Source of the DNA: a virus | Virus record (IMG/VR): IMGVR_UViG_3300032285_004437 | Location: 1 to 47,870 of that record | Length of the DNA: 47,870 nt | Strand: one strand, 5' to 3' | The notes under the pieces: model-generated | What the model was told of the DNA's origin: nothing | The model's input: only the letters and a program-made list of their open reading frames with translations | Databases searched by the model: none | Program-made: the position numbers and the translations under genes | Part shown: in pieces, positions 11,606 to 43,224 of the stretch | Layout of the letters: the number at the start of each line of letters is the position of its first letter | Numbering within the stretch: position 1 is the first letter of the stretch

Positions 11606-13354
11606 TTAGAAAGGTGTTGAATTATATGTATAAAGGGTTCCACATTTGGTGGTGTCTTTCCAAGTGCTACCTGGTTTTGTGCCCAGGTTTCCTCCCCATG
11701 CAGAGTAGTAAACCTTAAACCATCTCGAAGTGGATATACTACTAGAATTCGCTATGCTCATTATAGTAAATTCAACTTGGGTTGCTCCATAAGAGCTATC
11801 TCCGCTGATGTCAACAAACTGTCCATTTCCATCATAGGATTGAATAGTCCCGTCGGGCAAAGAGGTTTGATTTCCGGTTGAAAGACCAAGAAATCTAAAT
11901 CTTTGTGTGGGATCAGAAGTTCTTACCCTAACAATAAGGCATTCATTAGAATCTAAAAGACTGAGCCAACCTCCATTATTATTAGCAGGTGGAGTTGCAG
12001 GGGTAAATGATGAAGGTGTCCACAAGCAAATCCCAGCATTTGTTGACGTTGCTATATCAACCACAACATCTATCCCGCTATTGAGAACCGATGCATTTGT
12101 AACAGCGGAAGTGATAGCAACACTAGGTATAACAGGAACCCAATTTGCTGTGACCGCAGTTGCAACTAGACCTACGTAAATATTAACAGTTCCAGGATTT
12201 AAACTGTTATTCACAGATTGAGGGGCCTCTATAGAATCAACTCTTCTATTATAATAATAGTCTCCGTTACCTGAAACGTTGCTTATAACCTTAGTATTTT
12301 TGATATCATTAACTGAAAACAGAAAAGAATTTCTATCATTAGGAACATCAGATCTATGTCTAATATTAGATGAAGTTGTAGCTGTAGTTGAAATCCAAAG
12401 AGCAGGTATTCTTGGGCTCTTAATCGAAGGATTATAATAAAAAAGTCCTCTTATCGGAACGGCGAATTTATTAGAAGCGTACGTTAAATTAGTTGTTGAA
12501 AATGAAGCAGTCCCACCAAACCCAAAAAGGATATCTCCAGAAATGGTTGATCCCACTAAAGATCCACCAGACTGATTAGAGGAAAGTGACATATTAATTC
12601 CGGCAGTTTTAAATAATACTGAAGAAGAATAAGAGGTTAAATTAAAATTAGAACCTGGGGTTTCAACTGAGAATCCATCAAAAGCATCGAACTTTAATCC
12701 ATAGTCAGATCCGGAGGTTGCCCAATAAAATTTGGGGGTTTTAGAATATACAGAAGGGAGATCTTGGTAATCAGCTTTAGCAAATTCCATTATCTTCTTA
12801 TTAACATATGTGGCACTAGCATTAGTTGAGATTACTACTTTAGAGTACTGTGGGTTAAAAGTATATTTGCTATTTCCCGCGGCATTAAAAGTGATATCAT
12901 GCAAAACCAGAGCGTATGAACTAGGATTTGTCGATGTGAAAAAATACCCACTCTTATTAGAAACTCCTGCAGATGTTGAGAGAGGACCAAAAACTCTAAA
13001 AAGATCTTGGGATGTTATATTTGTCCCGTAGAGAGACCATAGTCCAGAATTATACTGATAGACAGTATTATAATTCATAACATCCATCCAAAAGTCACCG
13101 TCAGCTGCACCGTAATATGTTCCTGATGTGGGTTGGGTTGGTCCAACCGTCCATATGCTTCCCCTTTTTCCAGCATCCCCATAAGATCCTGCTGGGCCAG
13201 TTTGACCCTGAGCTCCTTGAGGTCCCCTTCTTCCTAATTTCCCATAAGGACCACCGCCGAAGGTGATAATGTTAGAAAAATTTGCATTGATCTTATCAAC
13301 AAAAACTTTTTGTGAATCACCTTCTTCTATTCTCAATAACTTTAAATCTGGCAT
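11606..13354 (-). CDS. Collagen-like fibre protein (582 aa), paralogue of its neighbours
   Basis: The first 65 residues repeat the module of the adjacent genes: LLRIEEGDSQKVFVDKINANFSNIITF followed by GGGPYGKLGRRGPQGAQGQTGPAG-type Gly-X-Y triplets and a RGSIW block. The rest is a Ser/Thr/Asn-rich beta region with an ending (FTIMSIANSSS..RWFKVYYSAWGG) that resembles the end of the 549-aa paralogue (FTIS..KVYYKAYSS). This is the architecture of trimeric phage fibres with a short collagen-like neck. It is the first gene after a GATATATA element and lies three bases before the Hint-domain paralogue. No Hint domain is present here, which makes it a useful comparison. Its precise position in the virion is unknown. 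Confidence 0.75.
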   Translation of the reverse strand: MPDLKLLRIEEGDSQKVFVDKINANFSNIITFGGGPYGKLGRRGPQGAQGQTGPAGSYGDAGKRGSIWTVGPTQPTSGTYYGAADGDFWMDVMNYNTVYQYNSGLWSLYGTNITSQDLFRVFGPLSTSAGVSNKSGYFFTSTNPSSYALVLHDITFNAAGNSKYTFNPQYSKVVISTNASATYVNKKIMEFAKADYQDLPSVYSKTPKFYWATSGSDYGLKFDAFDGFSVETPGSNFNLTSYSSSVLFKTAGINMSLSSNQSGGSLVGSTISGDILFGFGGTASFSTTNLTYASNKFAVPIRGLFYYNPSIKSPRIPALWISTTATTSSNIRHRSDVPNDRNSFLFSVNDIKNTKVISNVSGNGDYYYNRRVDSIEAPQSVNNSLNPGTVNIYVGLVATAVTANWVPVIPSVAITSAVTNASVLNSGIDVVVDIATSTNAGICLWTPSSFTPATPPANNNGGWLSLLDSNECLIVRVRTSDPTQRFRFLGLSTGNQTSLPDGTIQSYDGNGQFVDISGDSSYGATQVEFTIMSIANSSSISTSRWFKVYYSAWGGNLGTKPGSTWKDTTKCGTLYTYNSTPF

Positions 13355-27751: not shown

Positions 27752-28405
27752 ATGGAAAAACAAAAGAAAGTGCTTAAAAACGAAATCAAGTATGCTATCA
27801 CTCTCAATGACGAGCAGAAGGAGGCAAAAAGGGACATTATAGAAAACCAAATTGTGGTAATTACCGGAAGGGCGGGATGCGGTAAAAGTCTGGTTTCTGC
27901 ACAGTGTGCTTTAGATTTTTTATTCAAAAAAGAGTATGACAAGATTTTAATCACTCGTGCAGCCGTTGAGGTTGGTCACTCTTTAGGATTCTTGCCAGGA
28001 TCTCTTAATGAGAAATTCGACCCTTATCTTGAGGCTTTTAAGGAGAATCTAGTTAAATGTTATGATAAGGTTAAGATAGACAGTCTGATCAACGAGGAAA
28101 AGGTTCAGGCACTCCCTGTTCAGTTTATCAGAGGTAAAACAATCGATGATGTTTTGGTGGTGGAGGAAGCACAAAACCTATCAAAAGCAGAGATGCTTGC
28201 AATTCTTACACGTCTTGGAAAGAATGGCAGGATTATAATAAATGGCGATAACGAGCAGAAAGATATTAAAGACCCCTTCAATGGTCTTAGTTACGTAATA
28301 GAACTCTCTAAAAAAATAGATGGAATTAAGCACGTAAAGCTTAAGCATAATCACAGATCGGATTTAGTTGGTAAAATTCTGGAATATGAGTACAGCGGGA
28401 AATAG
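27752..28405 (+). CDS. phoH: PhoH-type P-loop ATPase
   Basis: The only plus-strand gene in the window, 217 aa. It has the PhoH core: Walker A GRAGCGKS (39-46), a Walker B EEAQN (138-142), the GDNEQ sensor-like segment (165-169) and a final KLKHNHRSDLVGKILEY motif near the end (about 197-213). PhoH proteins are RecA/helicase-like ATPases, common in phages; their role may be in RNA handling, but it is not settled. The start ATG has an A-rich leader and lies just after an intrinsic terminator. The stop is one base from the convergent stop of the propeller-type virion gene, with no terminator between them. Confidence 0.88.
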   Translation: MEKQKKVLKNEIKYAITLNDEQKEAKRDIIENQIVVITGRAGCGKSLVSAQCALDFLFKKEYDKILITRAAVEVGHSLGFLPGSLNEKFDPYLEAFKENLVKCYDKVKIDSLINEEKVQALPVQFIRGKTIDDVLVVEEAQNLSKAEMLAILTRLGKNGRIIINGDNEQKDIKDPFNGLSYVIELSKKIDGIKHVKLKHNHRSDLVGKILEYEYSGK

Positions 28406-28406
28406 T

Positions 28407-31400
28407 TTAGATTTCCTGGGTGCTAAAAGTTGCATCAGGATCATCTGGGATAACCAGACTGCTTCCAAAAGGAGGTTGTTCAGCTTTAAATAACTCAAGT
28501 TCCTGCTGCTCCATTTCTCTCTGAAGCTTTTTAACTTCATAATCTCTCGTAATATCTGGAGGTTCTGGATATCCAAAGTCTGTTGAATCAACAAAGTCAG
28601 GATGCTTGTCATCTGGTCTCTTGTCCTTGTGGTTTATGACCTTAATGAACCCAGGCTTAGAAACCTCGTAAACATTACCTTCTGAATCTTCAACCTCATT
28701 AGTTATTGAATAATAGCCAGGAGTCGAAAATGTATAAATAAAATACGGAGAAGACTTGATCGTTAGCAAGTCGTTTCCATTTGACTCATCAATTAAAGAC
28801 CACTTATTGTTTTTCTTTCCGTAAATATTAGAAGCATAGTTATTGAAAACAACGGTTGACATCAGGGGAATCTCTAGGTGACTATCCGAAGAATGAACGT
28901 CACACCAAGTCCATGCTCCAGATCCAGGTCTGGATATTATATTTCCAAGATTTATACCTAGTGAGGGAATGTACTGTTCAGCTTTGAGAACAAATCCACT
29001 ATCAGATTGGGTGATGATATAAGGACCGGATGCACCATATGTCATCAGAGAAGAAGCCACATAAATGTTAGAATCTTTATCATTAGTAGCAGTTAGAAGA
29101 TCATAGCTGATATTAGTGTCTCCGTTCCAATACTGGTCATCGAGTATTCTTCCTTTCTGATCTGATTTTAACAAGTGAAATTCTTTATATCCCAGCCCTG
29201 TAATAACGCTATATAAAATAAAGTACTGTCCATTCGGAAGTATTTTAGATTTTATTAGCTCATAAAACCTTGGAAGAACAGAGGATTGGTATAACTCATC
29301 GAGATACGGTGCGAAAATATTTTTAGTGACCCCTTGCTCCGTGATCTCTGCAGTTAGAAGATATGTTCCGGTTCCACCTCCGTAAAATGAATTACCTAAA
29401 TATGACCCAGAAGGTCCATAAGCTGTGGTTATATAATAAGTTGATTCTGATTTAGAAGATCTAATTTCATACTCACCATATACTTGAGGTAAATTTCCTG
29501 TAATAATACCTCCAGTAACTCCTACCCCTGCATTATTTAAGATGATAAAAAATGGATAATCGTTATTGACATCTGGTGCCACGAGATCTATTCCGCCAAG
29601 ATTAAATCCTGTTCTGGTCATCCCAGTTAATAAAGTTGTGTTATCCGTTGAAAGGGAATCCACAGATCCGATATCATATCTTACACTACCAGAGGTTAAA
29701 CCAGTCGAACTTGATGTTGTCTGAATGGAAAAGTCTTCATTCGATAATCTCACATAAGACATGAATTTAGACAAAGATGAATCTTTGAGATATTCAGCTA
29801 CCCAGTCGCCATCGTTACTTCTGTTCCACTTGTTTTTAAGTGTGGATAAAGAGCCAAATCCACCGCTGTTTGTAGATACTGAAAGGTTAACTGAGTAGTC
29901 CGTCGTGTCAGAAATTGAGCTTATATCACTAATCGAATTAGAAAAACTTAGATCGCTAGAAGGGAAAGTTCTGAAGTTTGTAACCCTATATCTCTTACGT
30001 ATTTCTGAGTTGTAATCTCCGGTTAAGCCAGCAAAGGAAGTTATATCTCCTAGATCTTTCTCTATCTGTGCCACGAAAACTCCTATGGCATTTTGACCCC
30101 CATATCTAGTATTAGCCACATCCCAAAGAGCTGGAACTAGAGGAAAGCAGTAATTTGAATATGAATAGAAATTAAATCTCAGATTCTGGCCAATCCCTGG
30201 TGATCCAAACCCTTTCTGATAAGTAACCCCGAGTATTATTGTGGTCGGGGCTGAATTGAAAATTCCAGCAGTCTCATTGATCTCGATAGAATTAATAACA
30301 TAATAGGAGATATTCGAAGGCTTATTTATATCTTGTATAGTAACAACATATCCTGTATGAATATAATTGGCAAAAAGTATTATTTCCCAGTTAGTGTTGT
30401 GTATATCAAAAAAGTTTAATCTGATTTGATTTATGTTGGCATAAATTGAGGGTGTTGTGTTAACGGTATTGAAATCGCAATTTCCTGGTATCGCAGCAGT
30501 TCCACCTGGAACAAATTTATAATCAATTCCTCCGGTAGCAAAAATGGATTGAAGCGGATTAAATCCCGTGGCACCACTAGGATTATATAGCCAAGGGTAA
30601 GTTCCAGTTATCGCTCCGGGAACGCTAGCATTAGTTATTCCTATTGGGGCTCCAGTTGGACCGCTATTAAAAGTAGAAACTGCAGATTCCCATCCGCTAT
30701 AAACATACTCTCCATTTTCGATTAGCCAGTTATACGTTCCAGTCACAGTAACAGAGTTTCCATCTGTGGATGGTGATATGGATGTTACATTGGTTGAATA
30801 TCCAGGAAAAGTTACTACCGCCTCAACAGATCCTGTTTCGTCATAGCAAGCAACAAATCCACAATCAACAAAGTCAGAGGCTGAAGAGTCTCTGGTCATT
30901 GCATTACCACCGAGGGTTGGGTTTGGATTTATAAAGGTGGCAGGTGTACTGTCGCTATAGTATCCTAGATGGGTTTCTATATTTCCAGAAACATATCCGC
31001 CAACATAGAGTTTATTCGAACCGCTTACTTTAAGTGTTGTTGAGGCGTTAATAGTAACCCCACTAGATCCGCTCCCCGAAGTTCCTTGTATGAATTTAAT
31101 CTGATCTATCCACGAAGGTTCTGATATTTCCTCAGCCATTATCTCCTGATCATAAGAAGGGATAGGGTAGTTATCCCAATAAGCTTGTTTGCCAGCTTCT
31201 CCGTCAGCTATAGCTTTTAATGATGTGGTCAGGAAGAGATCATCAGGATCCAATCCAGGATGCTTGAATTGTAGATATTCGTCTTGGTAAACTCTCCACT
31301 CGGGATAGCTCCAAGAGTACTTCCCTATTCTTGGTAAAGGTGCTCCAGTTCCTCCGGTTGGGCTATAGTAAATGAAATTCCACCCTGTTGCTCCTGCATA

Positions 31401-32504
31401 TTTAGAAGAACCATAAACATGCGGAATATCATAGTCAAAAGACGTCAGGTAATTATATTCAAGAATCCAAAGTGCATCCTCGTGAACAATCAAACCATCT
31501 TGATCTATATTATGCTTTACGAGCTCAATGCCAAGAACATCATTGCTAGATAAGGAAGAATTAGAAGAAGTAAATTGGGTGTGAGTAGTGCCATTAAAAT
31601 GCCAAATACCGGTACCCTGATTTAACTCACCATCACCGATAGAATAGAAAACGTGTCCATGGTCCCTAGATTTAACCAGAGTTACAGGACCAGTTGTTCC
31701 ATAGTTCCAGAAGCTGTGGCCATCGAAATATGAAAGACCTAGATCAGTTCCAATCCAAAGATTACCAATCTCATCCAGATCTATCGAGTAGATGTGATCT
31801 GAGATTATCCCGGAGGTGTGGGTATTATAGACCTGAGCTTGCCTGATAATTTCTGTGCCGTCTGTCAGGGTAACAGTTGATAGGGTTCCCTGAGGGATTG
31901 TCAAGAGACCTTCTTCGGTTGCTACGTAATAGAAATAATTCACACCATCGATCCCCTTGGCTTTAATATCATAGATATGAGACCAGTTGTATCCGGGTAT
32001 GGTTTCTTTCCACTCATCGGTTTCTTTGAGATAGTAGAAAAGTCTTCCTCCAGTAACCCCGTAAATTCTAGTGTAGTTTGTGAGACCAGCAGTTCCTCCT
32101 ATTCCATTTAGAGGTGTTGCAAAAGCCAAGATATCATCTCCGTATGGACATGCGTAAATAGTAGAGATCTCCTGGTAAACACCATTAAAATTCCCGAGAT
32201 CTGAAAAGTTCCAACTTCTTCCCTCGTAAACATCATTAGTATTTAAAGAGAAAACTGCCACGTTATTATATCCAGATGTTGGCCCTTGAGCCACACCGCA
32301 CCACAGATACTGTTCAGGGTCAATGGAGAGACACCTAGTATCTAGAGCATAAGGACCTGCTGGATCTGCTGGAACTGCTGAGTTCGAATGGTTATAATAA
32401 TCCCACCCTTTCCCATTAAAAACCCTAATATCCTCACCTGACCCCCAAACGTAAAATTCGTGGTCTATGTCTATCTGATTTATATTTAATGAGGCGCTTG
32501 GCAT
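28407..32504 (-). CDS. Virion protein (1365 aa) with beta-propeller-like N-terminus and PKD-like C-terminus
   Basis: The first ~350 residues contain propeller-type repeats: the clearest is ISDHIYSIDLDEIGNLWIGT.. GLSYFDG..FWNY at about 234-268, the signature of two-component regulator propellers (Reg_prop), with weaker copies near 55-72 and 320-350. Such domains are the sensor heads of Bacteroidota hybrid kinases and may bind glycans. The middle is Ser/Thr/Gly/Tyr-rich structural sequence, and near the end (YFIYTFSTPGYYSITNEVEDSEGN) is a PKD-like strand set, then a charged helical tail. It follows the PKD gene by 33 bases. An adsorption role is plausible but unproven. Confidence 0.72.
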   Translation of the reverse strand: MPSASLNINQIDIDHEFYVWGSGEDIRVFNGKGWDYYNHSNSAVPADPAGPYALDTRCLSIDPEQYLWCGVAQGPTSGYNNVAVFSLNTNDVYEGRSWNFSDLGNFNGVYQEISTIYACPYGDDILAFATPLNGIGGTAGLTNYTRIYGVTGGRLFYYLKETDEWKETIPGYNWSHIYDIKAKGIDGVNYFYYVATEEGLLTIPQGTLSTVTLTDGTEIIRQAQVYNTHTSGIISDHIYSIDLDEIGNLWIGTDLGLSYFDGHSFWNYGTTGPVTLVKSRDHGHVFYSIGDGELNQGTGIWHFNGTTHTQFTSSNSSLSSNDVLGIELVKHNIDQDGLIVHEDALWILEYNYLTSFDYDIPHVYGSSKYAGATGWNFIYYSPTGGTGAPLPRIGKYSWSYPEWRVYQDEYLQFKHPGLDPDDLFLTTSLKAIADGEAGKQAYWDNYPIPSYDQEIMAEEISEPSWIDQIKFIQGTSGSGSSGVTINASTTLKVSGSNKLYVGGYVSGNIETHLGYYSDSTPATFINPNPTLGGNAMTRDSSASDFVDCGFVACYDETGSVEAVVTFPGYSTNVTSISPSTDGNSVTVTGTYNWLIENGEYVYSGWESAVSTFNSGPTGAPIGITNASVPGAITGTYPWLYNPSGATGFNPLQSIFATGGIDYKFVPGGTAAIPGNCDFNTVNTTPSIYANINQIRLNFFDIHNTNWEIILFANYIHTGYVVTIQDINKPSNISYYVINSIEINETAGIFNSAPTTIILGVTYQKGFGSPGIGQNLRFNFYSYSNYCFPLVPALWDVANTRYGGQNAIGVFVAQIEKDLGDITSFAGLTGDYNSEIRKRYRVTNFRTFPSSDLSFSNSISDISSISDTTDYSVNLSVSTNSGGFGSLSTLKNKWNRSNDGDWVAEYLKDSSLSKFMSYVRLSNEDFSIQTTSSSTGLTSGSVRYDIGSVDSLSTDNTTLLTGMTRTGFNLGGIDLVAPDVNNDYPFFIILNNAGVGVTGGIITGNLPQVYGEYEIRSSKSESTYYITTAYGPSGSYLGNSFYGGGTGTYLLTAEITEQGVTKNIFAPYLDELYQSSVLPRFYELIKSKILPNGQYFILYSVITGLGYKEFHLLKSDQKGRILDDQYWNGDTNISYDLLTATNDKDSNIYVASSLMTYGASGPYIITQSDSGFVLKAEQYIPSLGINLGNIISRPGSGAWTWCDVHSSDSHLEIPLMSTVVFNNYASNIYGKKNNKWSLIDESNGNDLLTIKSSPYFIYTFSTPGYYSITNEVEDSEGNVYEVSKPGFIKVINHKDKRPDDKHPDFVDSTDFGYPEPPDITRDYEVKKLQREMEQQELELFKAEQPPFGSSLVIPDDPDATFSTQEI

Positions 32505-34404: not shown

Positions 34405-35361
34405 CTAAAGATCCTTTCTCTGTTCAGCTGCATAAAGTATGGCTTGAACATAGTTCCATGAATTGTATTGAGGCTCAACGAAAGAGAGATCCTCGTCAAA
34501 AGGCGATTTTGAAATATAATCACCTTTAAAAAATTTACTACCTTTTTCTTCGTCCACCACTCCAGCATTATGCATGATTTTATTATCTGCCCACTCATGT
34601 GCTCCGCCAGAACCCCAGCTAAATCCAAGCTCTTCTGAAATCCTAGTCTGATGCCCTCTCTTCCAAGCGCACCATAAAACTGCCCACATATCAGCGCACC
34701 ATTTTTGAATAGGATTGTATGATGCATTCTCCTCCTGAGATAGCGATTTTCTCTCATCTATTTCTTTTTTAGCCATATACTTATAAAGCTCAACACAAAG
34801 CTCCTTTACCTCTTTCCAATAATCTGCAGTAACCCCCTTCATAAGATATTGTGCACCGCCTGAGTTATGATGATTCTCTTCAACCAACTTCTGATCTATC
34901 TTTGCAATCTGACAAAGATCATCCAATAATGATTTCCCCTTAGACTGAATGTATTTAGCACCAATATAAGAAACGGTATCGCTTAGATACCAGAAGGCAT
35001 CATTATACATAGTATCAAAATCAGGAAGCTCCTTGAATATAATATCAGAGTCATGATAAAAAATCACTTCACCCCTAAGCTCTGGATATTTGATAAAATG
35101 TTGTTCTAGAGCATCTGGTCTTAGCACCTGAATATACCCAAAGTTGTTTATACGGCTTCTTCTGTAGAAATGAAAATTGACAAAGTGATATTTTCTAGAG
35201 AGATCAAGTAATCCTGGGCTAATCTCATTTTCATATGAGAAAAGAACATGGATCCACCTGGGGTTTATTCCAACCCGAATAGCATTATGTACAAAAACCT
35301 CAACCTGCCAGAAGAAGTATGGATCATCCGGTTGAACTGAGAGAAAAAGTATTTTATTCAT
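34405..35361 (-). CDS. Glycosyltransferase-like protein (GT-A fold, DxD motif)
   Basis: I start the gene at the ATG at 35359-35361 (318 aa); a longer frame begins with TTG at 35391 and would read through an inverted repeat. The protein starts MNKILFLSVQPDDPYFFWQVEVF, a nucleotide-sugar transferase-type first strand, and has a DxD-type metal motif in FYHDSDIIF (D104, D106). A later WGSGGAHEWADNKIMHNAGV segment resembles the acceptor or catalytic end of GT-A enzymes. The likely job is to transfer a sugar to an acceptor in the phage particle or host surface. It follows the poly-threonine baseplate gene by 71 bases, which makes that protein a candidate acceptor. The family was assigned by motif; donor and acceptor are unknown. 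Confidence 0.68.
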   Translation of the reverse strand: MNKILFLSVQPDDPYFFWQVEVFVHNAIRVGINPRWIHVLFSYENEISPGLLDLSRKYHFVNFHFYRRSRINNFGYIQVLRPDALEQHFIKYPELRGEVIFYHDSDIIFKELPDFDTMYNDAFWYLSDTVSYIGAKYIQSKGKSLLDDLCQIAKIDQKLVEENHHNSGGAQYLMKGVTADYWKEVKELCVELYKYMAKKEIDERKSLSQEENASYNPIQKWCADMWAVLWCAWKRGHQTRISEELGFSWGSGGAHEWADNKIMHNAGVVDEEKGSKFFKGDYISKSPFDEDLSFVEPQYNSWNYVQAILYAAEQRKDL

Positions 35362-35392
35362 TTTAAAAAAAATTAAGAGATAAATCTCCAAC

Positions 35393-35410
35393 TCTAAATT
35401 ATAATTTAGA
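35393..35410. repeat. 18-bp perfect palindrome before the glycosyltransferase gene
   Basis: TCTAAATTATAATTTAGA is its own reverse complement. A second short inverted repeat, GAGAT..ATCTC (35377-35388), follows on the minus strand and leads into TTAATTTTTTTT just before the start at 35361. Together they could be a weak terminator plus an operator-like site. Both lie in the 71-base gap between the 1839-aa and glycosyltransferase genes. Confidence 0.7.
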
Positions 35411-35432
35411 TTAGATGAAGGATATTTTATCT

Positions 35433-38400
35433 CTAAGATACTGGGTTATATGTGATTCTAAGCCACCACTGATCTCCCTGCTCATAAGGTGAACGTGTTG
35501 GAGAAATTTGTAAAGTTCCCGTTGATCCCTGAGTACTTGGACTAAATGAGGTACTTCCACTAGGCCATGCTGTTCCCGGAGGATCATATCTATATCTATT
35601 TGTGGTCAGGTAGAAATAAACGGTTGGAACTGAAGTTGAATTGAAAGTCACATCAAAGGTTAATTTTTCTATTACTGTGCTCCATGGTCCTAGGAACAAT
35701 CCGGTTTGTTGATTATGACTTGGGAATGAAAGTCCGCTGTAAAATGCGGTATCCCGATTTCCGGCCCCATCCAAACCATATAAAGAATTTATAGTAACAT
35801 AAGGAGTATCTCCTTGATATGTAGCATATCCTATACTAAATGGTTTAGCAGGATGCAGTGTTGTCGTTGTTGTAATAGCACGGGTTGTCGTTGTTGTTGT
35901 ATTTGTATTAATATACAGATAAACTTTCATATAAGATGCATTTGCCACAGAAATGTTAACCCATTGGAAATAAAGCTCACCCTTACCGGAAGGAGTGCTA
36001 GGATCATAATTGGATGTTAAAGGAGAGTATTGAACAAATGTGCCATTGTTATAGAATATCTCTATTTCAGCACTGAAAGAATTAAGGTAATTAGGCACCA
36101 GAACATCAACATACAATTCATAATCTCTTGTGAAACCTCCAAGACTAAAATCAGGGTAGAATGTAAACGGATTATTAGTACCGTTACCCGTTGAGTCTCC
36201 AGTCATAACAGGAGGCTGGATATCAACAAGAAGCGAGCTGAGTGTTGAATCACTAAAGTATATAGCACCACTACCATCGTTATTACCTAGTATATTATTG
36301 ATATTACCTGTTGAGTAATAAATAAGTTCACTATTTAACTGAGGTATCGTTGTTGTTGTCGTTGTTGTTGTCGTTGGCGCATGTGTTGTTGTCGTTGTCG
36401 TTGTTGGAGCCAACGTCGTTGTTGTCGTTGTGGTTGTCGGAGCCAGAGTTGTGGTTGTCGTGGTTGTTGGAGCCAACGTTGTTGTTGTCGTTGTGGTTGT
36501 GGTTATATTCGGATTACCCCCACTTAGACCTATTATAGGTATCAGAACTGTGCTTCCACCTAACACTGAAATAGCAGGTGGATAAGCTGAGTTAGGAACA
36601 CCAAAATTATTCAGGGTTAGATTAATCGGAGGCGAATCCATCTCTAATGCACCAGCCTCATTCGGAATTGGTCTGTAATAAAAATCTGTAATATATCTGT
36701 CCTCTGCAGAGTTTAATTGATCTGCCAACTCCTGAAGGGTTAGTGGAGAATGTCCAGGTCCAACTGTGATTCCAACAGGGAATGGATATGTCTGATTCCC
36801 AGTGCTCAGTTTAATATGATCTCCTGGAGCTATATTATGAAGCTCATATCCACCAAGCCAATCATTGTTATATTCAAAGTCATACCATCCGTGTCCATAA
36901 CCATCATCCCACATATTGTCAGTAAACACATCCCAATTGAGTTTCTTTGTGCCCCAATATTTTAAATTAGCATTAGGAAAATCTCTACTTGATTCACTCC
37001 AAAAAACATAACTTTCTGTTGGACTTACACCATTTCCAAGCGCGGTTGAAGCCGTGACAGTTGTTAGGGATCCAGTTAGTGAGAATGAAATGGGAACACC
37101 GTTTTGATCAGCTCCCAGATTGCTAGGTGCTGTGATTAAAACAGTAACTGGATCTTGTGTGGTGTCCTCGCAAGAAGCAAAATAATCAGGATATGTTCTT
37201 AGAGAGTTAACAGATGACACTATAGCATTTGCTGTTCTGTATAAAGAGTCTCCTGCCTCTGCAGATCCAACTTCTCTGCCATTAACATTAACTGTAATGG
37301 TTCCAGATCCGGTGAAGTACTGATTAGTATAACCACCAGGAGATGTGTCAACAGAAATTCTGGTTGGAGAGGTTTGATTTATGATGCCATTCCATGAGCT
37401 CTGAAGAACTACAGGAATTTTAAAATCCAGAGTGGAGCCACTGGGAACTATAACTGGCCATCTGCCAACAAGTTGAGGTAAGGTATCAAAAAGTGTAACC
37501 TCGTACCCAGTTTGGAGTCCATGAGGGATAGATGTTGTTATGGTTGCAAACCCGTACTGTCCACCTGCAATCACTTCATAAGAAGTGATATCAGTTATTG
37601 GATACTGGGTCTGTGTGAAAGTGACCGCACCAGTTGCTCCAATTGGGGTTGTTTTTATTTTAACATAAACATCCTGTCCTTCTTCCGCCTTATTTCCGTA
37701 TGTAACGAAATCTAGAATTTCATCTGGGATTTTCTTCTGAAGATCTTCAAGAGATTCACCTTCAGCTGGAAATTCCCATATTGATTTATAATCATCCCAT
37801 CCTTTATAAACGTTCATCCACTCATAATCCTCAACCTCCCTATATCTAGTCCACGCATCAATCTCTATAACTTTCGGTTCAACCATGATGGCATGATTGT
37901 TGAACACTGTGCTTCTAACATTGAATCCATCTACGATATTACATCTAACTCTATATTCTCCAGTATAGGGAACAAAATGTGCTAGTTTGTAAAAATCGAT
38001 TACTGGTCCGGAAAATTCAAAGTGATAAGGACTGCCTTTCTGTGTTGGAATTTTATCTATAATCCACTCAATATCAACCATGTTGGAAAAATCTATATTC
38101 TTCCAATTTAGCATTCCATATTCTTGACTAGGTGCAAACAGCTCAGACGAGTCAAAAGTTGCGCTAGATCCGCTGTCAAGAAGAACATCATATGTTCCCA
38201 CTGAGTAGTGAGTGTCAACAACACTTCCAAAAACACCCTGCGGGGCAGAAACAGATACTAAAGGACTGTAAGTGTAGCCAGATCCTGGAGATGTGATTAT
38301 AACAGATGTGATTCGACTTCCTGTAATTACTGGTGTTAGAATTGCGCCAACACCTCCTCCCCCACTTAGTGTGATTGATGGCGTAGCTGAGTACCCCAAA

Positions 38401-40952
38401 CCCGATCCATCTATATGGACCTGAGTGATGCTACCTGAGCTTATATCCACAGCTAAAGACGGAGCTAAAGTTTTAACTCTTACCCTATCGCCAACTTTAA
38501 ATGATGGCAGATTCACAGCAGACCAATTGATATTCAATTCATCCCAAGACCATCTATTAAGAATAAGCTCAAGGATCAAAGGCATTCCTATTGGGGTCTT
38601 ATAAGGCAATCCGGTGCTAGGATTAATAAAAGCTGGCGGATCGTATTTCTCGTCACCAAGCTCTTTAATTTCTCCCTGCTGTTTCAAATAGTAGAATTCA
38701 CCAATAGCAGAGATAAGAGACTCGTTCTGAGCTGGATTGAAATTCTGTTGGAAATCTAAAGGATCAACTATATTACCAAGATCAGATAGTGTTGATGGTA
38801 AAATAGATATTGTGCCATTAAGCATTGCTGGGTTCTCCACAGCAAAGTAATATAGAGGTGATGTTTGAGTCGGATTCACATACCACGTTAATGGTAAACC
38901 TCCTGAGATAGCCCCGTTATTTTCTAATCCGAGTGGGGTAACCACACTAGCAAGGGTTTGATCGCTAGTTACGTAGAATGTATAACCTGTTGTTCCGATT
39001 GAGAACTCATAAGTTTTACCTGAAGTAACAGAGATTGTTGGATTTGGTCCGGTAGCTCCTGTTAGGGTAAAGAAAATAGCACTTCCAGTTCCTCCTGTTA
39101 TTGTGACAAGCGATCTATAGTCATTAAAATAATCAGATGGAGTTTGAATAGAGGAAGCTAGGGGTCTCAGAGAGAAATTTCTAAGATCCTCTATAAATCC
39201 AAAGTCTGGATTAGAAACAATCTCAAAGTAAAGTCCTGCTTCAATCTCAGGTCTTTCCATCTTATCAGTCCATGATCTTGTGTTATAAACATCAAAGTAA
39301 ATACCCTCCCCAGTGATATCAATTATGCGGGCATTCAGAGGAAGGTAGTCTCTCTTTAGTCTCTCCTTTAATGCAAACATTTTCACCAGAACTTCCTCCT
39401 GTGTGAACTGAAAGGCATCAATGACTTCAGGATATCCATAAGCCGAATCGTTACCTGACATCTTATTTAGATCGTAATAGAGTCCAAATAGGGATGTCTT
39501 CTTGTAGGTTTTAGAAGGTAATAGTGTATCTTCAGAAGCAACATTTAGCACATAATTCCCTTCCTTGTCTGGCCCATATGTTTGGGTTAGCTTATATTTT
39601 CCAGAGTTTGGATTGTCTAATACATCATTAATCTGAAAAGTCTGAGTGTATCCATGAGCAGATCCTTGAGCTTTAAGTTGATCTAAAAACTCTTTATTCT
39701 TCTGCAAAGGCGATTGAACCTGAAGCTTTTTATACTCGAGATTTAGCCAGTATTCTTTAATCCTAAGATCTTGATATCCGAAGAATTTTATAGCGTTAAT
39801 AAGTCCTTTATAACTTCCTATATAAGGAAATATCTGATCACCAGCAAGAAGTAACTCTTTTCTCTTTTGATTTATTTCTAAATAATCAGGGAGAGGTTCT
39901 TTCGGATCGTGATCTCTAAGTATAATTGAATCAGATTGATGAAAAGCACGACCTAGATTCTGAAGCATCACATCAAATCTCTCATCCTCACCTGTGATTT
40001 CTCCATAGAAGTCAATCTCTATAACTTTTATAGGAGAAGCTCCAGTCCCACCTGAGATGTCTTCAACTATTAGCTTTCTCTCGTAAATATTGGAAAAAAG
40101 ATCGGGAGAATTTAAAGCAACATTAATAGGAAGAGCTTCAGAACTAACATGAGAAGTTTGAATGTATCCACCGCTAGCCCCGTAATAAGTATCACTGGCA
40201 CTTACATCAACGTTGAAAACCATGTTAGGATAACTAACAATTAGGGGTTTACCTTCTCCACCTTCTAAAGTGTCCTCTATCCTGTACGTGAATATTATTT
40301 CGGAGATATCAGTTTCTCCATATCTGTCATTATACCATCTAGTTCTCCATTTGGCTGCGGTGGCTCCGGTAACACCACTGTGTGGCAGTCCATAAGTCAG
40401 AGATTGGGTAACTGTGTTATACATCTCCTGTACAACAAAGATCTGTTCATTCTCATAAAGCCCAGATGAAACTGGATCAAAATAGATATTACCCTTGAAA
40501 TATCCACCAGGTCTATAGTCATATGTTGTATAAAAATAGAGTTGACTATCTAAACTTATTATTCTCTGTCCTGAAGACTTGCCGCTAAAAAATTGGATCT
40601 GATAAGTTAGTCCGACTTGATTAATGGACTGTATCTTACCCATGAACTCTTGCTGCCCACCGATTCTTCCATTTAAGTAAACATCAGCACCTTTCTGTAA
40701 GTAATCGCTAACCTCATCTGCCCAAGACGTGAGATCGTAATCATTCTGATCCTTATAATAAAGAGTCATTGTTGCTGGCTCTTGATCAAAATTGGAAACA
40801 TTTATGTTACCCGGAGAAGATACCGACACACTGGAAATATACTGGAATCTGGTATCAAGGGGGGTTGGGCCAGTTGGTCCTATATAATCGAAATTTAAAG
40901 GAGCTCCTGCTTTGTTGAAAAAATTAAGCCTTCTATAGAAAAAACTGGACAT
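35433..40952 (-). CDS. Large baseplate protein (1839 aa), gp7/gpI-like, with poly-threonine tracts
   Basis: Position after gp25 and gp6 is that of T4 gp7 or P2 gpI. Residues about 320-405 have GEDERFDVMLQNLGRAFHQSD, then FPYIGSYKGLINAIKFFGYQDLRIKEYW, which recalls the conserved HKGT..AL..LG...EW motif of gpI-type tail proteins. The middle carries two GSGY-type strand repeats (IDGSGLGYSATPSITLSGG / ITSPGSGYTYSPLVSVS). Residues 1484-1535 form a threonine-rich tract broken by LAP or HAP, and a shorter one lies at 1685-1698; the stretches around them look like a compact beta domain. Such a Thr/Pro tract may be a flexible stalk and, if glycosylated, mucin-like. The next gene is a glycosyltransferase. 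This is likely a baseplate wedge protein with an added surface-exposed end. Confidence 0.7.
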   Translation of the reverse strand: MSSFFYRRLNFFNKAGAPLNFDYIGPTGPTPLDTRFQYISSVSVSSPGNINVSNFDQEPATMTLYYKDQNDYDLTSWADEVSDYLQKGADVYLNGRIGGQQEFMGKIQSINQVGLTYQIQFFSGKSSGQRIISLDSQLYFYTTYDYRPGGYFKGNIYFDPVSSGLYENEQIFVVQEMYNTVTQSLTYGLPHSGVTGATAAKWRTRWYNDRYGETDISEIIFTYRIEDTLEGGEGKPLIVSYPNMVFNVDVSASDTYYGASGGYIQTSHVSSEALPINVALNSPDLFSNIYERKLIVEDISGGTGASPIKVIEIDFYGEITGEDERFDVMLQNLGRAFHQSDSIILRDHDPKEPLPDYLEINQKRKELLLAGDQIFPYIGSYKGLINAIKFFGYQDLRIKEYWLNLEYKKLQVQSPLQKNKEFLDQLKAQGSAHGYTQTFQINDVLDNPNSGKYKLTQTYGPDKEGNYVLNVASEDTLLPSKTYKKTSLFGLYYDLNKMSGNDSAYGYPEVIDAFQFTQEEVLVKMFALKERLKRDYLPLNARIIDITGEGIYFDVYNTRSWTDKMERPEIEAGLYFEIVSNPDFGFIEDLRNFSLRPLASSIQTPSDYFNDYRSLVTITGGTGSAIFFTLTGATGPNPTISVTSGKTYEFSIGTTGYTFYVTSDQTLASVVTPLGLENNGAISGGLPLTWYVNPTQTSPLYYFAVENPAMLNGTISILPSTLSDLGNIVDPLDFQQNFNPAQNESLISAIGEFYYLKQQGEIKELGDEKYDPPAFINPSTGLPYKTPIGMPLILELILNRWSWDELNINWSAVNLPSFKVGDRVRVKTLAPSLAVDISSGSITQVHIDGSGLGYSATPSITLSGGGGVGAILTPVITGSRITSVIITSPGSGYTYSPLVSVSAPQGVFGSVVDTHYSVGTYDVLLDSGSSATFDSSELFAPSQEYGMLNWKNIDFSNMVDIEWIIDKIPTQKGSPYHFEFSGPVIDFYKLAHFVPYTGEYRVRCNIVDGFNVRSTVFNNHAIMVEPKVIEIDAWTRYREVEDYEWMNVYKGWDDYKSIWEFPAEGESLEDLQKKIPDEILDFVTYGNKAEEGQDVYVKIKTTPIGATGAVTFTQTQYPITDITSYEVIAGGQYGFATITTSIPHGLQTGYEVTLFDTLPQLVGRWPVIVPSGSTLDFKIPVVLQSSWNGIINQTSPTRISVDTSPGGYTNQYFTGSGTITVNVNGREVGSAEAGDSLYRTANAIVSSVNSLRTYPDYFASCEDTTQDPVTVLITAPSNLGADQNGVPISFSLTGSLTTVTASTALGNGVSPTESYVFWSESSRDFPNANLKYWGTKKLNWDVFTDNMWDDGYGHGWYDFEYNNDWLGGYELHNIAPGDHIKLSTGNQTYPFPVGITVGPGHSPLTLQELADQLNSAEDRYITDFYYRPIPNEAGALEMDSPPINLTLNNFGVPNSAYPPAISVLGGSTVLIPIIGLSGGNPNITTTTTTTTTLAPTTTTTTTLAPTTTTTTTTLAPTTTTTTTHAPTTTTTTTTTIPQLNSELIYYSTGNINNILGNNDGSGAIYFSDSTLSSLLVDIQPPVMTGDSTGNGTNNPFTFYPDFSLGGFTRDYELYVDVLVPNYLNSFSAEIEIFYNNGTFVQYSPLTSNYDPSTPSGKGELYFQWVNISVANASYMKVYLYINTNTTTTTTRAITTTTTLHPAKPFSIGYATYQGDTPYVTINSLYGLDGAGNRDTAFYSGLSFPSHNQQTGLFLGPWSTVIEKLTFDVTFNSTSVPTVYFYLTTNRYRYDPPGTAWPSGSTSFSPSTQGSTGTLQISPTRSPYEQGDQWWLRITYNPVS
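35859..35900 (-). repeat. Short threonine-codon repeat (residues 1685-1698)
   Basis: Fourteen codons: six Thr, Arg-Ala-Ile, five Thr, mostly ACA and ACG triplets. It echoes the main Thr tract and may be a second linker in the same protein. Confidence 0.85.
36348..36503 (-). repeat. Threonine-rich codon repeat, 52 codons (residues 1484-1535)
   Basis: Five Thr runs of 9, 7, 8, 7 and 9 residues, separated by Leu-Ala-Pro (three times) and His-Ala-Pro (once). The DNA is an imperfect trinucleotide repeat of ACA/ACG/ACC on the minus strand, so length change by slippage would keep the frame. It is not a CRISPR array: the units are short and encode protein in frame. Confidence 0.9.
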
Positions 40953-41496: not shown

Positions 41497-43224
41497 TTAC
41501 TTAGAAGAATTTAGGATTAAAGCTTTGGTTTCTGCACTTAGATCTGCTCTGTAGTTTTGTTTTACCACAGAAGCTATACTTATATTTAAAGGACCAGGTT
41601 TTCCTTCCACCACATTCTCTGTGAATAGAGTTCCATTTCTATCAGACCATCCTCCTCTTAAAACAACAAGTTCATTTCTGCCAATCACGATATCACCAAA
41701 ATCATTTAGGCCCAGTGTTTGATTCATTTGCTGTTCGGAAACATTATCAAGTCCTCTAATAGCTATTTGATTAGCTTCATTTTTCTGGCCAGTGAAGAAG
41801 AAGTTAACGGAGTCAACCCCATCAATACCTTCAACTATAGCTATAATATCAGATTTCGGTATAGTATCTCTCCGCTTGATATTTAACATATAGTCAGATA
41901 TTCTCTTTCTAATTTCTCTCTTAATCGTTTCTGGATCATACCCTTCAAACATAGTTATAATCACATTAGCCGTGTATCTTGTTATAATAGGCTCAACTAT
42001 TTTAACAACAGTTGTTGCTATCATAGATCCTGAATCCTGAAGGAGTTTTAGAATCATAGTTTTTTGGGCAGGTGTTAAAAGAAAATCTGTTAACGGAACG
42101 CTAAAATAATCCTCATTAGATCCTATATTTAGTGTTATGTCCGGAATTAGATAAAGGTAAACAACATTATCATCATCTAAATAGTCATCATCGAAAGTAG
42201 AGAAAGCTTGGATCTGTGAGAAGATTCCAAGTTTATCAAGAAACACCTCATAGTTCTGGGCGTTAGCAAAAACGTAGGATCTGCTAGTTTTAGGAGCCAC
42301 CAATCTAATTAGATTGATCGAGTCTGGGTTTGTGCCAAACATTGGATCTATGCTTGAATTTATATTTAAATAGGTGTTTAGATCAATCTCCTTACCAAAT
42401 AGATCGGTTCCGCTATCTGAGAATTTATAGGTTAAAGGATTTTGCCTATTGGTAGCAGTATTCCCAGCAGATCCACTACTTTGTAGATATTCTATTCTTA
42501 TTCTTGATCCTCTCTGTGGGACCATTCCGAAGTTAGAGTTTCCGAAATAGATATCAAGTCCTTCCTGAATTCCAGACTTAACTAGATATCCCTTCTTATT
42601 TAAAGGAATATCATAGAGTGAATCGTACTTTTTCCACTTCTCCTCATTAACATAAACATCAACATAAAATTGATCTATATAAGCTCCTGAAATTGACGGA
42701 AGATTAAAACTTTGAAGAGCAAGTCCAGTACCTGTAACTATCGAAGTCTGGAAAGTTCCTTCTACGATTTTACATCTGATAGGATTTACGCCTCCGCTTA
42801 AAGTGATTGTTATTTTTTGGGATCCGAGAACTAAAGAATACGTTTTACCGTTATCCTGACATTTAATTTGAGTGTGGTTATTCATTATAACCGCTCCGCC
42901 ACCCGCATCAGATTGAAGCTGATTCCATGCAACTGTAACCTCTCCCTGGGCTGACATGGATCTTCCTGGATCATATCCAGCTATCCTAGCTAAACTTCTA
43001 ACTGAATAATCTCTAGAGGCTTGCTCTATGTTTAGCTCTGTGATAGAGTCCTCAATAAAGTACAAGATCATCTGTGAGAGGTTCTGGAGAACGAATAAGA
43101 CCTGGCCCCAGGCAGAAGCAACGGTAAATAGATTTGCTGTTTGGTTGTAGGTGTCCTGGAGAAAAACGAAGGTGTCGTTTAGAAGACCGTTAATCAGGAC
43201 GTTATTTTTCTTAAAAATGTTCAT
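41497..43224 (-). CDS. 6: Baseplate wedge protein, T4 gp6 / P2 gpJ type
   Basis: A 575-aa protein in the slot directly after gp25. The N-terminal region has helices typical of gp6/J (DTFVFLQDTYNQTANLFTVASAWGQVLF), and YSVRSLARIAGYDPG matches the conserved A...GY.P stretch of the family. Later come LLTPAQKTMILKLLQDSGS..ATTVVKIVEPIITRY, and VIITMFEGYDPETIKREIRKRISDYM, followed by KSDIIAIVEGIDGVDSVNFFF, which match the C-terminal core that inter-wedge contacts use. In T4, gp6 is a dimer that links neighbouring wedges into the baseplate ring. The 1.7-kb length fits (T4 gp6 is 660 aa). Confidence 0.87.
   Translation of the reverse strand: MNIFKKNNVLINGLLNDTFVFLQDTYNQTANLFTVASAWGQVLFVLQNLSQMILYFIEDSITELNIEQASRDYSVRSLARIAGYDPGRSMSAQGEVTVAWNQLQSDAGGGAVIMNNHTQIKCQDNGKTYSLVLGSQKITITLSGGVNPIRCKIVEGTFQTSIVTGTGLALQSFNLPSISGAYIDQFYVDVYVNEEKWKKYDSLYDIPLNKKGYLVKSGIQEGLDIYFGNSNFGMVPQRGSRIRIEYLQSSGSAGNTATNRQNPLTYKFSDSGTDLFGKEIDLNTYLNINSSIDPMFGTNPDSINLIRLVAPKTSRSYVFANAQNYEVFLDKLGIFSQIQAFSTFDDDYLDDDNVVYLYLIPDITLNIGSNEDYFSVPLTDFLLTPAQKTMILKLLQDSGSMIATTVVKIVEPIITRYTANVIITMFEGYDPETIKREIRKRISDYMLNIKRRDTIPKSDIIAIVEGIDGVDSVNFFFTGQKNEANQIAIRGLDNVSEQQMNQTLGLNDFGDIVIGRNELVVLRGGWSDRNGTLFTENVVEGKPGPLNISIASVVKQNYRADLSAETKALILNSSK

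Follow-up and report, generated by a model that had tools for sequence, protein, structure and literature searches.

In mucin-type and GT60-type O-glycosylation, as known from animals and from the mucins of Trypanosoma cruzi with their Thr runs, stretches rich in Thr and Pro serve as the acceptors. Glycosylation of virion proteins has so far been shown in few phages. In the mycobacteriophages Che8, Corndog and Myrna, the phages' own glycosyltransferases modify the major capsid and tail tube proteins (Freeman et al. 2023, as cited in PMC11256854 and PMC12363180), and the resulting glycan shield changes antibody binding, according to the same two accounts (PMC11256854, PMC12363180). The mycobacteriophages resemble the case predicted here in that phage enzymes act on the virion proteins of the same phage, whereas the genomic arrangement differs, the Che8 glycosyltransferases gp109 and gp110 being encoded at the opposite end of the genome. 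No poly-Thr tract was found in the Che8 capsid and tail proteins, and an hhalign comparison of the profile of the enzyme family described below (PHROG_4417) with the single sequences of gp109 and gp110 detected no similarity, a result still compatible with a distant kinship. Virion glycosylation by a dedicated enzyme is already known; what is new is the enzyme family and its proposed acceptor, which is recognizable and transplantable. A search of the literature on poly-Thr or threonine-rich phage proteins returned nothing relevant, which does not prove that such reports are absent.

The locus and its poly-threonine tract

The window, that is, the whole stretch of DNA analysed here, is an IMG/VR virus record of 47,870 bases. 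Its minus strand encodes, in this order, a baseplate wedge protein, a 178-aa protein, the tract-bearing protein P0002, the enzyme P0001 and more large virion-like proteins (Table 1). P0002 itself yields partial matches to wedge, head-closure and virion-protein profiles; with these and with a PHROG_219 wedge gene upstream, the baseplate-type label given to it in the preliminary description is plausible. The 71-nt gap between P0002 and P0001 holds a terminator-like hairpin and a U-run, so that co-transcription of the two genes is not assured; the hairpin speaks against a simple joint transcript.

Table 1. Features of the tract and enzyme locus, in window coordinates
Feature	Position	Strand	Evidence
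Baseplate wedge subunit, PHROG_219, upstream of the tract gene	41497..43224	-	E 5e-35
P0002, virion (baseplate-type) protein with poly-Thr tract, 1839 aa	35433..40952	-	ORF, profile matches
P0002 conserved N-terminal part, residues 1-1451	36600..40952	-	Homologues 58-69% identical, with and without tract
Poly-Thr tract, proposed acceptor, P0002 residues 1484-1535	36348..36503	-	40 Thr, LAP/HAP spacers
P0002 beta-rich C-terminal region(s) past the tract	35436..36347	-	Low-confidence single-sequence structure model, pLDDT 50
Second Thr patch, TTTTTTRAITTTTT, P0002 residues 1685-1698	35859..35900	-	Sequence
AT-rich hairpin and U-run between P0002 and P0001, terminator-like	35363..35434	-	z -2.2
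P0001, predicted GT-A glycosyltransferase, 318 aa, PHROG_4417	34405..35361	-	Profile, alignments, model

Thr runs split by LAP or HAP over 52 residues, as first pointed out in the preliminary description, are indeed present in P0002, in the arrangement T9-LAP-T7-LAP-T8-LAP-T7-HAP-T9, and the second Thr patch reported there is real as well. Like the acceptors of the mucin-type and GT60 systems, the putative acceptor in P0002 is a Thr/Ser/Pro-rich tract, with 40 Thr in 52 residues, compared with a maximum of 18 Thr in any 52-residue stretch among 2000 shuffled versions of the protein. No other large protein of the window reaches 8 Thr in 20 residues. Because all four Thr codons occur in it (ACA 23, ACG 11, ACC 5, ACT 1), the tract is no plain DNA repeat, and its origin as a mere repeat or slippage artefact is ruled out by the mixed codons together with the conservation of the tract with the enzyme. 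For the C-terminal region past the tract, no relatives were found among the loci compared.

Two other genes of the window were recorded in passing. At 28407-32504 on the minus strand, a 1365-aa protein with weak matches to PKD domains and regulator propellers is likely to be a large adhesin-like virion protein. A 217-aa protein encoded at 27752-28405 displays P-loop and PhoH-like motifs as judged by eye; its gene is on the plus strand, whereas the virion genes next to it run the other way.

A predicted GT-A fold in the PHROG_4417 family

The ORF list starts P0001 at a TTG codon (35391), which is probably wrong, the better start being the ATG at 35361 that gives 318 aa. The protein is a member of PHROG_4417 (E 4.9e-65, residues 6-309, 304 of the 318 residues), an entry listed under 'unknown function', and enzymes of this type are carried by 74 isolate-phage records, mostly with the annotation hypothetical. 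Searches of Pfam, NCBIfam and PDB sequences matched P0001 to no named glycosyltransferase family and, with no match to Glyco_transf_8 or related Pfam and NCBIfam families, it does not belong to CAZy GT8/GT24 as a sequence family. Matches to TALE-repeat sequences in the PDB extend over a short stretch and were dismissed as chance. As judged by eye, a kinship with plant HPAT/GT95-96 enzymes may exist.

The AlphaFold model of P0001, built with 29 relatives, has a pLDDT of 94 and a pTM of 0.92, and its best matches in the PDB (Foldseek, VIA-align) are GT-A glycosyltransferases of the retaining GT8/GT24 type, namely, glycogenin (Z 15.4, 225 residues, 3.5 A), Skp1 galactosyltransferase (Z 14.7), UGGT (14.5), LARGE1 (14.0) and LgtC (13.8). 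The predicted fold is common to P0001 and to the GT8/GT24-like retaining enzymes such as glycogenin, UGGT, LgtC and LARGE1 (Z 13.6-15.4), whereas sequence identity to these four amounts to only 8-13%, with no shared Pfam family match. Along with the predicted GT-A fold, P0001 possesses a DxD motif and a C-terminal His, as in the GT8-like group. The GT-A-like enzyme with a DSD motif that had been proposed from the sequence thus holds up, the DSD being D104-S-D106. In the model, this motif comes after a central strand, and H264 is part of a late core strand; all three residues, D104, D106 and H264, are invariant in alignments of 29 and 16 sequences that extend from Bacteroidota-type to Bacillota phages. 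The fold and the invariant D104-x-D106/H264 support a putative metal- and nucleotide-sugar-dependent transferase, an activity that we infer from the model and the alignments. The fold, the conserved site and the Thr-tract association of PHROG_4417 are newly assigned here.

GT-A-like folds include nucleotidyltransferases, and by sequence P0001 matches none of the characterised families. Both points would suit a protein of this fold that is inactive or acts otherwise, as a chaperone, a structural protein or a nucleotidyl- or phosphotransferase, and that binds poly-Thr without glycosylating it. Against this, D104, D106 and H264 remain invariant across two phyla, which would be needless in an inactive protein, and the proteins whose structures match the model best are active retaining glycosyltransferases; we regard such a role as highly improbable. 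The label 'mucin-type' used in the preliminary description stands as an analogy only: P0001 displays no GT27/GT60 homology, there being no Pfam match and no similarity in a profile comparison with a PF11397 protein from another viral contig (L093, see below).

Enzyme and tract across phages

A scan of viral contigs for the enzyme yielded 74 loci with 52 distinct IMG/VR enzymes, each counted once and that of the window included. Genes with at least 9 Thr in 20 residues were considered Thr-rich, and a pair was considered direct when such a gene lay immediately upstream of the enzyme on the same strand. A Thr-rich gene is found directly 5' of 40 of the 52 distinct enzymes, against 11.4 expected under random placement within loci (maximum of 24 direct pairs in 20,000 draws), and somewhere in the locus for 49. 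In the remaining three (L045, L047 and L049, with L071 a copy), the enzyme comes after an unrelated polymerase-like gene. Independence of the enzyme from Thr tracts had been named in advance as the finding that would tell against the pairing, and even these distant-enzyme records contain a tract, their poly-Thr proteins (e.g., TTTTTTTTAAPTTTTTTTAAP) being encoded ~10 to 39 kb from the enzyme. The co-occurrence of tract and enzyme in relatives, put forward earlier as a check, came out clearly positive in both Bacteroidota-type and Bacillota phages and with unrelated carriers.

Thr tails accompany the enzyme in all 30 Bacillota bacterial-genome loci (runs of six counted), and nearly all sampled isolate phages have such tails on virion proteins, mostly major tail or capsid proteins. 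The major tail protein carries a poly-Thr tail in phages 1706, SA2, TPWB06, Semele and LpeD, and both the major head and the major tail proteins do so in iLp84, R9.1 and phiFL1A; in MA9V-3, poly-Thr is found on adhesin-like proteins, and the tails of SAC12B and LP65 are of the TTV/TQT type. In several cases, the carrier proteins are mutually unrelated, and Thr is the constant element. Phage bIL285, a candidate for an enzyme without an adjacent tail, was rejected as such: a TTTTTTRHD tail directly precedes the enzyme, so that the case is only partly non-adjacent. This tail lies beyond a stop codon that ends the major head gene in the same frame (L215:4881-5005), a configuration that could reflect either readthrough or decay.

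Outside Bacillota, a Thr tract near the enzyme homologue is absent in 16 of 17 bacterial-genome loci (Chitinophaga, Pedobacter, Spirosoma and others). In three Bacteroidota chromosomes (L297, L298, L299), the homologues reside beside what by eye appear to be an ABC transporter for peptide export, a radical-SAM protein of the SPASM type and leader peptides that contain GG motifs, which suggests peptide-modifying clusters. In a proteobacterial MAG (L296:3-2846), the homologue comes after a protein with PDAPAPESSQ repeats that is rich in Ser and Pro rather than Thr.

Matched presence and absence is seen in three protein families. Among homologues of the N-terminal part of P0002, 4 have the tract with the enzyme close downstream and 8 have neither (Fisher p 0.002); the respective counts are 3 and 11 for the phiFL1A major tail protein (p 0.003) and 11 and 35 for the bIL285 major tail protein (p 7e-11), with 0 discordant cases in each family, p values that overstate independence because the sequences are related and the bIL285 positives are near-identical. 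The trees of the P0002 and phiFL1A families each imply at least 2 changes and provide only two independent pairs per family. One 5.7-kb fragment (L260), with T20=9 and without a Thr run, was scored as 'neither'. Searches of whole records, in which positive controls were detected, found no enzyme in any of the 8 tract-less P0002 relatives (records of up to 348 kb) or in 19 tail-protein relatives.

Two sister phages, one with both elements (L225) and one with neither (L230), share 78% DNA identity up to position 13130 in both, and their alignment resumes at 15187 in L225 and at 13205 in L230, leaving 2056 bp in the former versus 74 bp in the latter. The 2056-bp insert comprises the tract, the C-terminal domains and nearly the whole enzyme gene; tract and enzyme here behave as one cassette. 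Hitch-hiking could account for part of the adjacency and of the cassette transfer.

The reverse association is looser. Of the 80 loci returned by a scan for nine ACN codons, 54 have a real in-frame tract, and 50 such records (T of at least 8) were searched for the enzyme. It was present in 11 of the 50, in 10 of these directly beside the tract, versus 0 of 30 controls (p 0.005; 4 of the control records do have a tract-bearing ORF, and with the remaining 26 alone p is 0.013), and many of the poly-Thr records are short fragments, which lowers this count. In the other 39 records, poly-Thr occurs without the enzyme and is flanked mostly by endolysin, tape-measure and tail-assembly genes, not by glycosyltransferases; poly-Thr alone therefore need not mean glycosylation. 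The enzyme implies the tract, and the tract does not imply the enzyme. When the 85 proteins neighbouring enzyme-less tracts were searched for other glycosyltransferases (25 commonest Pfam families), the only case was the viral contig mentioned above (L093:826-3831), in which first a radical SAM/SPASM gene and then one for a PF11397 (GT60-type) glycosyltransferase come after the gene of a poly-Thr protein. Here too a glycosyltransferase lies close downstream of poly-Thr, but it belongs to a different family, is a single case and is separated from the tract gene by the radical SAM gene; a second, unrelated Thr-tract glycosylation cassette is possible.

The enzyme-less tracts beside endolysin and tape-measure genes, as well as the insertion that brought both elements into one sister phage, would also be expected if the tract were a flexible or extended linker only and the enzyme, its neighbour by way of one cassette, acted on another target, be it a host cell-wall polymer, phage DNA or a host glycan. 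We consider this improbable, given that Thr tracts accompany the enzyme on proteins unrelated to one another and in varied, mostly adjacent gene contexts, that a second, non-adjacent virion protein is also tailed (the major tail protein of bIL285 and iLp84), that a tract is present even where the enzyme is encoded far from it, and that presence and absence match in the three families.

Thr outnumbers Ser in the tracts ~7- to 21-fold across groups. Two enzyme groups pair with Thr runs, and a diverged group of 326-aa enzymes pairs with TPTPT-like tracts, the number of T-P/N-T motifs per window being 5.1 for this group versus 0.02 for the others. Such a correspondence of tract style and enzyme group fits enzyme-acceptor co-adaptation, and lineage could explain it too.

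In several phages, a Thr tail appears to be encoded out of frame. In the Staphylococcus and Arcanobacterium phages SA2, TPWB06 and PT1-4 (L079:8111-8921, L213:4158-4917, L220:3502-4201), the major tail protein ends in ...TTTTTTTTP at CCC TAA and is followed by a long poly-Thr extension in an overlapping +1 frame, which looks like programmed frameshifting that would tag a fraction of the subunits. In the Enterococcus phages Planchet and vipetofem (L211:3573-4891, L218:3484-4814), the end of the major capsid gene is overlapped, in a different frame, by an ORF that encodes poly-Thr, with a CCCAAAA heptamer ahead of the capsid stop in Planchet, suggesting a putative frameshifted Thr tail on the major capsid protein.

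A candidate glycosylation tag of phage particles

It appears likely, and we hold this with good confidence, that P0001 is a GT-A glycosyltransferase that adds sugar to poly-Thr of the phage's own virion proteins, here P0002, and phages with the pair very probably give parts of their own particles a sugar coat. The proposal of the preliminary description that the enzyme decorates the tract is supported by the co-occurrence in relatives and by the confident GT-A fold; the enzymatic activity, the tract as acceptor and the O-linked glycan as product are what we infer. P0001 would transfer sugar from a nucleotide-sugar donor to Thr hydroxyls of the tract in a metal-dependent reaction that would take place in the cytoplasm of the host, either ahead of particle assembly or in its course. 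In P0002, the tract would become a long stalk, extended and coated with sugar, that links the baseplate-type part to the variable C-terminal region. More generally, it may function as a modular glycosylation tag on unrelated virion proteins (baseplate, major tail, major capsid and adhesin-like). Candidate benefits include shielding, protease resistance, stiffening of the stalk and adhesion; the masking and host binding suggested earlier have no support beyond analogy.

A variant compatible with this reading has P0001 elongating a glycan begun by another host or phage enzyme, or mainly targeting Thr outside the tract. The closest folds (glycogenin, LgtC, LARGE1) include elongating enzymes, many homologues on Bacteroidota chromosomes have an extra C-terminal region (486-845 aa), and the tracts vary greatly in length and spacing, but the tract itself co-varies with the enzyme, and a second glycosyltransferase was not consistently noticed beside it, so that we deem this variant rather unlikely.

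We lean, with some reserve, towards the broader view that poly-Thr tails and PHROG_4417 constitute a widespread transplantable tag system of Bacteroidota and Bacillota phages, in which one enzyme could serve any exposed virion protein (capsid, tail tube or baseplate) and some tags would be placed on a fraction of the subunits via translational frameshifting. An unannotated family, represented in 74 isolate-phage records, at least 52 distinct IMG/VR enzymes and many prophages, is thereby tied to a simple, recognizable acceptor. A poly-Thr-directed glycosyltransferase of bacterial origin would, if real, be a useful tool. The prediction, which can be tested directly on cultured phages, is that many phages of Enterococcus, Lactobacillus, Staphylococcus, Lactococcus and Bacteroidota, some of them of interest for phage therapy, would have sugar-coated particles.
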